DNA of 64,000 nt from Chitinophagaceae bacterium (GCA_023957575.1 JAMLGU010000004.1:186001-250000); one strand, 5' to 3'. Counted from the first letter of the stretch, positions 17,690-22,727 are shown. Numbers and translations are program-made. Notes: generated from the letters alone by a model not told the origin.

Positions 17690-19378
17690 CTAAGGATACA
17701 TTGTACCTCTCAGACCGGTTTTGAAACTCTCCTTTGACAATACATTGCGAATGTTACCACTACTCTCTGACCGTTCCAAACGCATGCTACGCCCCCTTGC
17801 TGTAACTGAATTAAAAGTTAAATCCATTCTTATTTTGCCAATTTTTTTGATCCGACCATGAATGATAGCGCCGGACGGAATGATCACATCACCTCTCATT
17901 TCTACAGGCGCCACTACTTTGAAACTCACGGCCTGTCCATCTTCTGCAGTTTCAGGAGTGATGTTTTCTCGCAATAAAAGTATTGCTGATGCTCTCAATT
18001 TCACCGGTTCTGATATTAAAGGCGGCTCCGGTTTGGGTGCCGGTTTTGGCGGCGGTTCTTCATTTTCTGTTTTTCCGGGCTTTTTGGAATTTGTATTTTC
18101 CGCCGGTTTCTTATCAGAGATGCCTGACTGTTCGGACTGACCTTTATTTTCTTCCTTCTTCTTTTTATTCAAAATTAAATTAATGGAATCTTCATTTACT
18201 GTTGGTTGTTCGGGAAGGGGAACAAGCGATTCTTCTTTGTCATTTTTGGTCACATTATTATTTAGTGTAGCTACCGGGCTGTCTTTATTTTCGTCTGATG
18301 AAGCGTCTGATGAAGAAAATATTTTGACCAATGAAAAAACCACCAGAATCCCAACAAGAACCAGGTAAAAGAACTTATTTTGCAACAGGGCAGCAATGTC
18401 CATTTTTTTACCGGAAGATTTGTTGGCGTTCATATCTACCACGGTAGTTGCCGGCTTACTGCTATGAGCAGCAGCTAACGGTATCGCCTCTTGTTTTCCC
18501 ATTATCGGACCTTCTGTTGTTGCGGGCGCCTCGGGGTCAATGTATTTTGAATCAATTTCGTGTAATTCCGGATAAGCTGCCTTCAAAGCCTGCAGAAAAT
18601 TTTTAGCATTTAGGAATCTTTTTTCTTGTTTCTTTTCAAGAGCCTTCAGTACCAGATCGGACAAGGGTTTTGGTACTGCAACATTCAATTTTTGAGGATT
18701 TACCGGTTTTTCTTTTACAATATCCTGCATTAGCATATAATCACTTTTTCCGGTAAAAGGAAGTTTACCCGTCAGCATTTCATAAATTGTAACCCCAACG
18801 GCATATATATCAGAAGCCTCAGATGGGTCTTTACCTTCGATTAATTCAGGAGCTAAAAATTCAATAGTACCTATTACGCGGCTGGCCTGGGTCAGTTTAG
18901 CCGCATCGGACACCTTTGCAATTCCAAAATCCATCAGCTTTACATCATTATCTTTGGTAAGCATAATATTGGCCGGCTTTATGTCGCGATGCAAAATTCC
19001 TTTTGCGTGAGCATGGCTCAGGCCCTCCAATACTTTTAGCATTACAGGTACAACCAACTGGTAAGGCAAGCGGTTTTTCTTGCGAATCAACTGGTCAAGG
19101 TTTTGCCCCTCCACATACTCCATCACCATAAAATAATCATCGTCCTTTTGCAAATAGTTGTATAGCAATGCAATATTGGGATGCGAAAGACGTGCCAATG
19201 TTTTGGCTTCATTTTTAAAACGCTCTAAAAATTGTGGCTGGCTTGTAAGATTTACATTCAGGTTTTTTATGGCTACCGTTCGTCCTAAAAGTGTGTCGGT
19301 GGCCAAATACACTTTTCCCATACCCCCTTCACCCAATAATGAAGAAACCTGATAATTTTGTATGGTTGTTCCTATCAT
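17690..19378 (-). CDS. Hanks-type serine/threonine protein kinase with transmembrane segment
   Basis: The 562-residue protein has an N-terminal kinase domain (about 8-270): Gly-rich LLGEGGMGKVYLA, K38 in VAIKNL, catalytic HRDIKPAN with D132, and DFG with D150. A membrane span follows at about 336-354, after a linker rich in Pro and Lys. The outer part ends in a beta-rich domain (about 470-562) with VIIPSGAIIHGRI, which resembles the C-terminal domain of TraM/TrbI-type conjugation proteins. The kinase is therefore cytoplasmic with a periplasmic sensor or anchor. It is the last gene of a four-gene operon with an FHA protein and a PP2C phosphatase, the expected reader and eraser of its phosphorylation. 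Confidence 0.9.
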   Translation of the reverse strand: MIGTTIQNYQVSSLLGEGGMGKVYLATDTLLGRTVAIKNLNVNLTSQPQFLERFKNEAKTLARLSHPNIALLYNYLQKDDDYFMVMEYVEGQNLDQLIRKKNRLPYQLVVPVMLKVLEGLSHAHAKGILHRDIKPANIMLTKDNDVKLMDFGIAKVSDAAKLTQASRVIGTIEFLAPELIEGKDPSEASDIYAVGVTIYEMLTGKLPFTGKSDYMLMQDIVKEKPVNPQKLNVAVPKPLSDLVLKALEKKQEKRFLNAKNFLQALKAAYPELHEIDSKYIDPEAPATTEGPIMGKQEAIPLAAAHSSKPATTVVDMNANKSSGKKMDIAALLQNKFFYLVLVGILVVFSLVKIFSSSDASSDENKDSPVATLNNNVTKNDKEESLVPLPEQPTVNEDSINLILNKKKKEENKGQSEQSGISDKKPAENTNSKKPGKTENEEPPPKPAPKPEPPLISEPVKLRASAILLLRENITPETAEDGQAVSFKVVAPVEMRGDVIIPSGAIIHGRIKKIGKIRMDLTFNSVTARGRSMRLERSESSGNIRNVLSKESFKTGLRGTMYP

Positions 19379-19420
19379 AGCGCTTGATTATATAGAAGGT
19401 TAATTTTTAATTTTTCATTA

Positions 19421-20278
19421 TTACCCGGGTTCAGTATCTCTTGGCGGCCTTTTGTTGATACTGCCTTTTCTTGATGCGATTATTACCGTAATATTGTCAT
19501 GCCCGCCTCTGTTTTTTGCATTTTCTACCATTTCCATAGCTACCTTTTCGATGTTTATTTCGGCTTTTAATAGCTCGGCCATTTCTTTTTCTTTCACATA
19601 TTCATAAAGTCCATCAGAACAAAGCAATATAGATACATCATCATTCCAATCAAATTGCAACAGTTTTATCTCACCATCAATAAATGGTTTGGTGCCCAAG
19701 GCATTAGTAAGCACATTTCTTTCGGGATGGGTGCCAGCTTCTTCCGGTCTTATTTCGCCTCTATCTATTTTGTATTGCACCAGGGTTTGGTCTTTGCTTA
19801 ACTGAGATGGCACATCACCTTTAAACAAATAAGCCCTGCTGTCTCCCACTTGCGTAAGGTAAATTTCCTTATTTTTTATTACTATACCTGTAATGGTAGT
19901 ACCCATACCTCTTAAAGCCGCATCGGTCAAAGACGATTCATAAATAGCCTTATTTGCCTTTTCCAGCGCATGTTTCAGGGATTTAATAATATTTAGATCA
20001 TTGTTGTAATATTCCCTGCCAAACACCTCCACAGCTATTCTGCTGGCAACTTCGCCACTGTTGTGCCCTCCCATTCCATCGGCCAAAATCAACAAATACC
20101 CTCTTTTATGCAATACTGCCTCGTCATCGGGAACTAAAATTATGGCTGCATCTTCATTGTTGGTTCTAACCATGCCTACATCCGACAAAACCGCTACTAC
20201 CATATCTTTTAAGGCAATCGGCTCATTAAAAGCGCTGACAATTACTTCCTGCTTTTTTTTTGTAAACCACCCAAACAT
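19421..20278 (-). CDS. PP2C-family Ser/Thr protein phosphatase
   Basis: The 285-residue protein carries the PP2C metal motifs: LADGMGGHNSGEVAS (about 66-80), TQVGDSRAYLF, LLCSDGLYEYV and GGHDNITVIIA. PP2C enzymes remove phosphate from Ser/Thr with two Mg or Mn ions and here very probably oppose the kinase encoded 42 bases downstream. It is cytoplasmic with no membrane segment. The N-terminal 30 residues (WFTKKKQEVIVSAFNEPI) are extra compared with a minimal PP2C. The upstream gene ends nine bases before its start. Confidence 0.92.
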   Translation of the reverse strand: MFGWFTKKKQEVIVSAFNEPIALKDMVVAVLSDVGMVRTNNEDAAIILVPDDEAVLHKRGYLLILADGMGGHNSGEVASRIAVEVFGREYYNNDLNIIKSLKHALEKANKAIYESSLTDAALRGMGTTITGIVIKNKEIYLTQVGDSRAYLFKGDVPSQLSKDQTLVQYKIDRGEIRPEEAGTHPERNVLTNALGTKPFIDGEIKLLQFDWNDDVSILLCSDGLYEYVKEKEMAELLKAEINIEKVAMEMVENAKNRGGHDNITVIIASRKGSINKRPPRDTEPG

Positions 20279-20287
20279 AAGGAGGCT

Positions 20288-20932
20288 TTAAAGTTTTTTT
20301 CGTAGCGCTACCAATGCCAGCAATGCCAGAACCCCGGCGCCAAGAAGCGAATAGCCGGCTGTTTTTAAGTCTTTATCTCCCGACACCACTGCCGTTTCTG
20401 TGGGGCAATTGTATTTCACCGTTACATTTCCAAATTCATCTTTATCAAAATCCATATTCGTAGTCTCGGAGGGGAAAGTAAAAGTCATATTATTTTGCAA
20501 AATTGCGTTACCGTTTGCTTCGGATTGCACATAATTAACAGAATTGGGTGTAAGTTTTACCGGTTGAATATCTTTGGACCCAATGGTGGCTACCCATTTA
20601 TTTTTACCTAAATATTCTACTACCCCTTTTGCTTTATACTCAATGGTAAAAGTTCTGTCCATTTCATTGGGTGAATATTTAAAATCATAAACGTAGTATG
20701 GACTTGCCGCTCTTTCAATGGTTCTCTTCACCATTGATGCCTGACCTCCGCCATACATATAGTTCCATGCAATCCATTGTGAGGCAGTTAATTTACCCGA
20801 CATGGTAAATAATGCATTACCGATTGAATCTACTTTGGCATCCGTTTTAATTTGTAGTGTTTCAGGCTTAATTTGTGCATCGGTTATTTGCCAGATGAAA
20901 ATTGATAATATAAGAAGTTGTAAAGTTTTCAT
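20288..20932 (-). CDS. Exported protein with C-terminal membrane anchor in the kinase operon
   Basis: The 214-residue protein has a signal peptide (MKTLQLLILSIFIWQITDAQ), a region of mainly beta character, and a C-terminal hydrophobic segment (GYSLLGAGVLALLALVALRKK, about 193-212) with positive end residues. This is a type I membrane arrangement with the body in the periplasm. I do not recognise a domain. It sits nine bases before the phosphatase gene and 61 bases after the FHA gene, so it belongs to the signalling operon. It could be the ligand-binding or substrate component. Confidence 0.7.
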   Translation of the reverse strand: MKTLQLLILSIFIWQITDAQIKPETLQIKTDAKVDSIGNALFTMSGKLTASQWIAWNYMYGGGQASMVKRTIERAASPYYVYDFKYSPNEMDRTFTIEYKAKGVVEYLGKNKWVATIGSKDIQPVKLTPNSVNYVQSEANGNAILQNNMTFTFPSETTNMDFDKDEFGNVTVKYNCPTETAVVSGDKDLKTAGYSLLGAGVLALLALVALRKKL

Positions 20933-20993
20933 TTTTCAAAATTTAAATGTTCAGTCTGATGACTTTTTAATGTTTTTACAAAACGTAACCACC

Positions 20994-22637
20994 TTAATTT
21001 TTACTAAAAACGAATGGGCCACCCACTGCAAATCTTTCTGCCATTTCATCTACTTTAGTACGAAGGAAAGCATCATCCGTCAGTTCAATTTGATGCACGC
21101 CTTTAGCAATCAGGTCATTCACATCAATTAAAGTATAACGGGGATCGCCGGCCTGAACATTTTTAATAAAATCATCTACTTCTTTCATTCCTATTTGAAA
21201 TGCCTCAAACGGACTGGCAATATGGCCTAATCCTTCGCCACCTACAGCAGTGGGTTCAATAGCAAATAATTGACCATTATATTTTATTCCCGGAAAAGCA
21301 TGGCCGGGGATGAAAAATATTACAGGGTCCAATCCTTCGGCAGCAAAAACACTGGCATATAAAAAAGACATTTCAATACAAAGGCCGGTATTTCCGGTAA
21401 TAACCTCGCGTGGCAGCCTTATTTTTTGCATGGTGCCTTGAATATCTCCTTTTTGTACAAAAGCGCCGCCTGTTCCACTATACACCATGTGTGTACGCCG
21501 GGTGGCTTCATAAACGCCCATCATAAAACGAATGGCTTCATCCGACTTATTGCCTACAGAAGCTGTTTCGCCGGCTAAAAGTTTTTCCTGTATTTGTTGG
21601 GTGTAGTACTTTACGATAGGATCCTGTGGTGTGATGAAAACCGGAGCCAAATCATTATTATCCTCCAGATCTTTAACACCCGTTACCTCACTTGCAGGCA
21701 TATTAGTGTATAAAAAGTCATTGCGGCTCAACATAGAGAATGGGTAGGTTTTTTCATATTTTTCCTGTTTACCTGCCGATGTATAGGTAATACGTATCTG
21801 AGCCCGTTCTGCCGATTCTGTGGTTTTTTGAGTAACAGATTGCGGGAATTGCGGGTAAATGGTTGTAACAGCCGATCCGCCGGGCAAAATAAATTTGGAA
21901 TCAGAAGCGGTGGTCCAGTTTATGATGCCGGGAATAGAATACTCTACCTTAACATCATTTAAAATGCCGGTACCCTTGTTATCAATTACTATTTTGGCAA
22001 AATAATACCTTCCATCTAATGCAGCGGGATTGGCATATACCTTGTAAGCGGCCGGCATTATTGCCGGCAATGGAAAGATTTGTACTACCAAATCGCCCTC
22101 ACCGCTCGTTTTTGCTACCACCGTTTTTTGGTTTCCTTTCCACAGCACACCGGCACCGCCTATCAGCAATAACACCGGCAATAACAACCAATAGGCAAAT
22201 TTGGCCGATTTTGCAGTAGGCGTAGTAGTTTTTGCATCTATATCAATAGTGGTAGTGGCGGGGCTGATGTTCACCAACTGTGTAGGCAAGGGCCCGCCCG
22301 GCCTGGGGGTGAGGTCGAAGATGAAGGAAGGGCCATTGGCGCCTAACTTTACCTCATCTCCCGGATTAAGTAATACAGAGCCTTCTACTTTTTTACCATT
22401 GACGAAGGTTCCGTTTCGGGAGCCATTATCTTCAATAATAAAAACATCCTCTGCTTTTTTAATGATTTTTCCGTGGTTGCGGCTAACCACTAATTCGGTT
22501 TCCGGATCGAACTGAATGTCGCTGGCGGTATCCCGACCGATGGTCAGTTCGGATTTTGAGAAATCAAATTCTTCTTGTTGACTTGCCTTTTGTCCGTTTA
22601 TAAAACGGATAAGGTATCTTTTTGGTGAGGTGGACAT
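20994..22637 (-). CDS. FHA domain - transmembrane - transglutaminase-like protein
   Basis: The 547-residue protein has three parts. Residues about 28-108 are an FHA domain: LTIGRDTASDIQF with R35, VSRNHGKI with S52, and NGSRNGTFVNG, the phosphothreonine-binding set. Residues about 147-166 are one membrane span. The large outer part ends in a papain/transglutaminase-like core with C420 in GNTGLCIEMS, H446 in IPGHAFPG and E461 in FAIEPT. The FHA domain is thus in the cytoplasm and the enzyme-like part in the periplasm. It is the first gene of the operon with phosphatase and kinase, so the FHA part probably reads phosphorylation by that kinase. Transpeptidation, deamidation or peptidase activity cannot be chosen between from sequence. 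Confidence 0.85.
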   Translation of the reverse strand: MSTSPKRYLIRFINGQKASQQEEFDFSKSELTIGRDTASDIQFDPETELVVSRNHGKIIKKAEDVFIIEDNGSRNGTFVNGKKVEGSVLLNPGDEVKLGANGPSFIFDLTPRPGGPLPTQLVNISPATTTIDIDAKTTTPTAKSAKFAYWLLLPVLLLIGGAGVLWKGNQKTVVAKTSGEGDLVVQIFPLPAIMPAAYKVYANPAALDGRYYFAKIVIDNKGTGILNDVKVEYSIPGIINWTTASDSKFILPGGSAVTTIYPQFPQSVTQKTTESAERAQIRITYTSAGKQEKYEKTYPFSMLSRNDFLYTNMPASEVTGVKDLEDNNDLAPVFITPQDPIVKYYTQQIQEKLLAGETASVGNKSDEAIRFMMGVYEATRRTHMVYSGTGGAFVQKGDIQGTMQKIRLPREVITGNTGLCIEMSFLYASVFAAEGLDPVIFFIPGHAFPGIKYNGQLFAIEPTAVGGEGLGHIASPFEAFQIGMKEVDDFIKNVQAGDPRYTLIDVNDLIAKGVHQIELTDDAFLRTKVDEMAERFAVGGPFVFSKN

Positions 22638-22678: not shown

Positions 22679-22727
22679 CAAATATAATCATTTTTAATGA
22701 TTAATTCTTTTTTGATTAATCAAAAAA
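22679..22727 (-). promoter_or_regulatory. Predicted promoter of the FHA/kinase operon with 20-bp palindrome
   Basis: On the minus strand TATATTTG (22686-22679) is a perfect TANNTTTG box, about 40 bases before the FHA start. The palindrome TTTTTTGATTAATCAAAAAA (22708-22727) is perfect and covers the place where the -33 element would lie. A half-site copy TGATTAAT occurs at 22698-22705. This looks like an operator in a divergent control region. Confidence 0.5.

Follow-up and report, generated by a model that had tools for sequence, protein, structure and literature searches.

The operon at positions 17690-22637 of the window, i.e. the 64,000-nt stretch of DNA from a Chitinophagaceae bacterium that was analysed, is a hybrid of two gene modules. 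One is a pair of genes for a transglutaminase-like (TG) domain and an anchored exported protein (ANCH); the other is a control cassette comprising an FHA-TM-effector protein, a PP2C phosphatase, and a Hanks-type kinase. By a small measure of preference, we read the operon as an inside-out phospho-switch, in which kinase, PP2C, and FHA domain would control a periplasmic Cys-His-Glu hydrolase that would cut or join proteins.

Organization and conservation of the operon

The original prediction of a four-gene operon held, and all four ORFs were found where it had placed them, on the minus strand. They encode FHA-TG, an FHA-TM-Ig-like-transglutaminase-like protein (20994-22637, 547 aa), ANCH, which consists of a signal peptide, a beta domain in the periplasm, and a membrane anchor at the C-terminus (20288-20932, 214 aa), a PP2C Ser/Thr phosphatase of the Stp1 family (19421-20278, 285 aa), and a Hanks-type membrane Ser/Thr kinase (17690-19378, 562 aa). 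The intergenic gaps are 61 bp between FHA-TG and ANCH, 9 bp between ANCH and PP2C, and 42 bp between PP2C and the kinase. A weak consensus match to the Bacteroidota -7 box, TATATTTG (22679-22686, minus strand), is located 42 bp upstream of FHA-TG, the first gene, and no good -33 box was seen upstream of that gene. The spacing and the conserved gene order suggest that the four genes form a single transcript.

For the survey of TG loci, one genome per GTDB species was scanned, which yielded 80 loci. An FHA domain is fused to TG in five of them, i.e. in a Niabella MAG (L056), a Leadbetterella MAG (L057), Parapedobacter defluvii (L058), a Cytophagales MAG (L059), and Parapedobacter soli (L060). 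Together with the window genome, the six genomes cover at least three families, and all six have the order FHA-TG, ANCH, PP2C, kinase on one strand, which far exceeds chance. Kinase, phosphatase, and FHA reader are a conserved unit. Rare adjacency of the homologues had been named beforehand as an outcome that would speak against the original prediction, and it was not observed. The genes that flank the operon in the window have housekeeping or transport functions (purD, peroxiredoxin, urea transporter, trpB/trpA), and a synteny check for an empty site found them scattered across members of the genus. No substrate gene was found to be linked to the operon. A T6SS-type Fha/PpkA/PppA system was considered and set aside, because no gene family of a T6SS is present in the scanned flanks.

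The PP2C protein reaches 237 bits with the Stp1 equivalog model NF033484 (cut-off 230 bits), placing it in the Stp1/IreP family, and its metal-binding motifs NNED, DGMGGH, SDGL, and DNIT are intact. The kinase is of the Hanks type (PknB-like), as indicated by its match to PF00069 (E 2e-60), the motifs HRDIKPAN and DFG, and the activation-loop residues T163 and T171. It was rejected as a PASTA kinase: the score with NF033483 (PknB_PASTA) is 337 versus 450 bits, the match ends at residue 374, and the Pfam scan of this kinase detected no PASTA repeats. A TM segment is present at about residues 337-353, and a beta-type domain at about residues 455-562 forms the C-terminus. The single TM segment would place this domain in the periplasm, and a sensing role appears likely for it. 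A second kinase/PP2C cluster of the window genome (contig C4 of G000, L162:7292-17163) is arranged differently from the operon and contains two kinase genes and one that encodes a protein of 1328 aa.

Domains of FHA-TG and its partner ANCH

The cytoplasmic FHA domain (residues 1-112; 22302-22637, minus strand) matches PF00498 with an E-value of 2e-17 and scores 63.8 bits in the Pfam scan, compared to a gathering score of 20.7 bits. The phosphothreonine-binding residues G34-R35, S52/H55, and N75-G76 are all present. An AF2 model of FHA-TG has a pLDDT of 86, with blocks over residues 411-460 at 91-98. The FHA part of the model matches the FHA domains of GarA/OdhI (VIA Z 16), which are among the best fold matches; with the whole model, the match lists of Foldseek/VIA were filled by FHA domains alone. 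A single TM helix is predicted from the sequence at about residues 147-168 (22134-22199, minus strand; helix 152-167 in the model), and it is followed by an Ig-like beta domain at about residues 183-310 (21708-22091, minus strand), which has beta strands in the model; of 60 relatives, 15 match NPCBM_assoc/NEW3 weakly.

The TG domain extends over about residues 325-540 (21018-21665, minus strand) and contains C420, H446, and E461. Its assignment is weak by Pfam but supported by profile comparison. The window protein matches DUF553 (PF04473) with an E-value of 0.16 and 11.9 bits, below the gathering score of 20.5 bits; among 60 relatives, 33 have weak PF04473 matches (best E 0.004), and the best E-value for PF01841 is 0.005, the gathering score not being reached. 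For the profile comparison, the TG profile was aligned with hhalign to a profile of Transglut_core proteins from relatives, resulting in a probability of 64% and an E-value of 6e-5 for this pair comparison, while four unrelated control profiles gave probabilities of 0.1-0.4%. In this register, C420 falls on the catalytic Cys, H446 on the His, and E461 on the Asp of the D-P-T motif. Modelling of the protein had been called for in the original prediction; in the AF2 model, C420 opens the helix 420-433, H446 opens the strand 446-453, and E461 lies just past the strand 456-459. A Cys at a helix N-terminus with His and an acidic residue on later strands is the usual order of the transglutaminase fold. 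Sequence register and model secondary structure together predict the catalytic geometry. The three residues are invariant among the 60 aligned relatives. The FHA reader of the original prediction was recovered, with one TM helix linking it to an enzyme-like domain outside the cytoplasm and with C, H, and E at the positions given.

FHA-TG also matches NF058533, the model of the anti-phage protein ProA (DUF4011 helicase-nuclease), at profile positions 14-240 of 1903 and with 67 bits versus a cut-off of 1500 bits. Only the N-terminal part of the profile is covered, and FHA-TG was therefore rejected as a full-length ProA. The block of Ig-like and TG domains (residues 215-456 of FHA-TG) is homologous to the ProA N-terminus (compare L055:7630-11031), and Cys, His, and Glu are retained in the TG-like domain of ProA, a cytoplasmic defence protein; this domain is enzyme-like and uncharacterised.

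ANCH follows TG on the same strand in all 74 testable TG loci, i.e. those with enough downstream sequence, and the two genes are mostly within 35 bp of each other. The 75 loci with a non-fused TG lack homologues of the FHA, PP2C, and kinase genes within the sequence covered, which is up to 7 kb on each side and less on some contigs; related FHA, PP2C, and kinase genes adjoin TG only where FHA is fused. Because ANCH accompanies TG even without a kinase nearby, it belongs to the TG module and not to the signalling part. The free TG proteins have a membrane anchor at the start, and they possess an extra C-terminal domain that is missing from the hybrids. TG-ANCH is a two-gene family without a Pfam family of its own. 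Besides Bacteroidota, MAGs from at least two further phyla contain it; these include a Hydrogenothermaceae MAG (L130) and an Acidobacteria MAG (L132), for which binning errors are possible.

The model of ANCH (pLDDT 90) consists of a signal helix, a beta domain (residues 24-175), and a C-terminal TM helix. No Pfam family matched ANCH, and a fold search with its model yielded no more than middling matches (ribophorin I/Ost1, LppM; Z below 7), which were not used as evidence. Profile searches of the PDB with ANCH, with the TG domain, and with the C-terminal domain of the kinase yielded nothing significant.

Exchange of the periplasmic effector

In most relatives that share this FHA domain, the TM segment is followed by a trypsin/HtrA-like serine protease (PF13365, E 6e-20), and its triad of H311, D403, and S507 (numbering of L044) is invariant in nine sequences. 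The FHA-protease genes adjoin PP2C and kinase genes, are spread over several families of Bacteroidota, and occur also in one species of the genus of the window organism (G011, L053). Because the relatives carry the serine protease at the same fusion point, phospho-control is the constant part of these operons and the periplasmic hydrolase the replaceable one. The last ~110 residues of the kinase are homologous across both kinds of operon, and the mean column identity of the C-terminal domain in the corresponding alignment is 33%. Two of 18 homologous C-terminal domains have a weak match to the conjugative TraM family (PF12508, best E 6e-5).

Several variations of the cassette were observed. 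In FHA-protease cassettes, an extra soluble kinase is often encoded between the FHA protein and PP2C, i.e. in the slot that ANCH occupies in the window, as at L044:9290-10486 and in L045, L046, L051, and L159. The PP2C of the FHA-protease operon of G011 reads as a fragment of 153 aa (L053:6871-7332), which may reflect gene breakage or an error of assembly, and the FHA-protease protein of G291 appears to be split into ORFs of 337 aa and 204 aa (L050:7735-9377), perhaps by a frameshift. Another FHA cassette, at L164:6152-10870, encodes three FHA-TM proteins in tandem, each of about 505-515 aa and with other periplasmic parts, beside one PP2C and one kinase gene.

A tree of the control cassette (FHA, PP2C, and kinase) was calculated for 18 operons. 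In it, the hybrids belong to a well-supported group (98/97) that also contains three protease cassettes of the family of the window organism. Five of the hybrids are united at 100/99. L059, the remaining one, is placed next to proteases with a support of 92/90, and the topology test does not reject one common clade of hybrids (p-AU 0.14). The control tree alone does not establish that the hybrids arose only once. In the tree of TG domains, the six hybrids are all part of one clade (SH-aLRT 100). The simplest reading would be one replacement of the protease by TG-ANCH, followed by spread or loss, in which an existing TG-ANCH pair would have displaced the serine protease of an FHA-TM-protease/PP2C/kinase cassette; the direction of the exchange is a part of this reading.

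A candidate phospho-switch, its alternatives, and known systems

The linker between FHA domain and TM helix is variable except for a Thr motif, T-[QRKE]-[VLI], five or six residues past a conserved FDxxPRP. Its Thr is identical in 19 of 19 FHA proteins with either effector type, while the Thr frequency across linker residues is only 12.5%. In the window it is T119 (codon 22281-22283, minus strand) within TQLVNI, a predicted phospho-acceptor. A similar Thr is found in the activation loops of the kinases of this group, with T-[QRK]-V or T-Q-A (T163). A Thr motif after the FHA domain also occurs in L054 and L164, whose FHA proteins belong to an unrelated family, and the motif may thus represent a wider design.

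GarA and OdhI are soluble FHA proteins that switch state when a Thr outside the FHA core is phosphorylated; their targets are metabolic enzymes, on which they act by binding. They resemble FHA-TG in the FHA fold, the PknB-like kinase, and the Thr motif beside the FHA domain; however, their Thr is N-terminal to the FHA domain, whereas the Thr of the window protein is C-terminal and juxtamembrane, with a predicted output across the membrane. By this likeness, T119 would be phosphorylated and read by the FHA domain, but the invariant residue could also be structural. In the switch model, the periplasmic domain of the kinase would probably sense the state of the envelope, leading to autophosphorylation, and the kinase would then phosphorylate T119. 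As in GarA/OdhI, the FHA domain would bind the phospho-Thr, either in cis or in an adjacent copy of the protein. This would alter the conformation or the oligomeric state across the single TM helix, thereby turning the periplasmic hydrolase on or off, and PP2C would reset the switch. ANCH would be a periplasmic partner of the TG domain, i.e. a substrate, an inhibitor, or a substrate adaptor. Phosphorylation, direction of control, enzymatic activity, and substrate are all features that we infer in this model. The phospho-control mechanism of the original prediction is plausible, being strengthened by the effector swap: its control unit and fused reader stand, and the effector has proved to be swappable, while ANCH had to be removed from the signalling half.

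The reverse direction of signalling seems unlikely. The TG-like domain would then be a non-catalytic binding or sensing module, the kinase would be presented with T119 when a ligand or ANCH binds to the periplasmic domain, and the FHA protein would serve as a scaffold for other cytoplasmic targets. Compatible with this are the Glu in place of the usual Asp in the triad, the fact that both the kinase and the FHA protein cross the membrane, and the occurrence of the Ig-like and TG block in ProA, where an envelope function is improbable. However, the invariance of C, H, and E, which extends to the ProA-like domain, speaks against it, and the intact H/D/S protease in the sister cassettes argues for a hydrolase output.

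We regard it as quite improbable that the four genes merely share a transcript, with PP2C and kinase as general regulators of envelope stress, FHA-TG as one of many clients, and no dedicated switch. PknB/PstP-type pairs, as in the case of the mycobacterial kinases, have many substrates, and the window genome contains three further kinase domains besides that of the operon. Against this, the FHA domain and the effector are parts of one physically fused protein, which is followed by PP2C and kinase in both effector versions, and the Thr after the FHA domain is invariant.

An anti-phage or stress-abortive system with kinase-phosphatase control of a defence-related effector is very unlikely, in spite of the match of the TG domain to the ProA model, good scores of the kinase with PD-T4-6 models, and the existence of kinase-phosphatase defence modules such as KKP, as mentioned in PMC11341870, because the PD-T4-6 models match Hanks kinases broadly, FHA-TG and ANCH have no PADLOC hit, and a defence island was set aside in view of the housekeeping or transport flanks.

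Besides GarA/OdhI, the inside-out phospho-switch that we favour has its closest parallels in four described systems or proteins. In LapD/LapG, c-di-GMP exerts inside-out control over a periplasmic transglutaminase-like cysteine protease via an inner-membrane protein (PMC4359373, PMC3032545). The proposed operon function is alike in its layout: the signal is cytoplasmic, the transglutaminase-like thiol enzyme that it governs is periplasmic, and control passes via a protein of the inner membrane. It differs in the signal, which would be phospho-Thr/FHA, in the fusion of the enzyme to its receptor instead of sequestration by it, and in the partner, which is ANCH and not an adhesin. FHA-TG also had no match to the BTLCP Pfam family at E-values of up to 1, and this family was absent from the 25 commonest families in the 60 relatives.

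In the bifidobacterial PFNA cluster (pkb2, fn3, aaa-atp, duf58, tgm), one operon likewise encodes a Ser/Thr kinase and a transglutaminase-like protein, both located in the membrane (PMC6803598). However, the Tgm of this cluster is polytopic, genes for a MoxR ATPase, DUF58, and FN3 are included, and FHA is absent from the text of the paper describing it; in the window, neither the operon nor ten flanking genes encode MoxR AAA, DUF58, or FN3 domains, and the operon is thus not a PFNA cluster. HvyA, a Caulobacter BTLCP, is likewise a periplasmic transglutaminase-like enzyme, which is under cell-cycle control and needs its C/H/D triad for function (PMC4241560), but it is controlled by expression and lacks an FHA or kinase fusion. 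For the protease version, the Bacteroides thetaiotaomicron protein NP_811686.1 has been listed as a single FHA-FHA-trypsin architecture in a survey of 2008 (PMC2605481). It shares the fusion of FHA and a trypsin-like protease; the survey's entry for it notes one protein and does not describe an operon, a kinase, or an exchange of effectors. Searches of the open-access literature for ProA and for Bacteroidota FHA kinases gave no description of the system found in the window, and operons of the FHA-TM-protease or FHA-TM-TG type were not found in it either.

Periplasmic proteolysis is known to be controlled from the cytoplasm by c-di-GMP, and inside-out control of periplasmic hydrolases is an established kind of regulation (compare LapD/LapG). 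To our knowledge, there is no case of a Ser/Thr kinase that controls periplasmic proteolysis through a fused FHA reader. As a tentative generalization, in which we have somewhat less than even confidence, Bacteroidota would have a portable phosphothreonine cassette of kinase, PP2C, and FHA-TM that drives interchangeable periplasmic proteases of the serine or cysteine type via the phosphorylation of one juxtamembrane Thr. It would be a phospho-counterpart of the Lap system, and TG-ANCH an undescribed enzyme-partner pair that is also used without the cassette. The effector swap represents a natural experiment, in which the constant part should carry the control and the variable part the output, and the switch model singles out one residue to mutate, T119.
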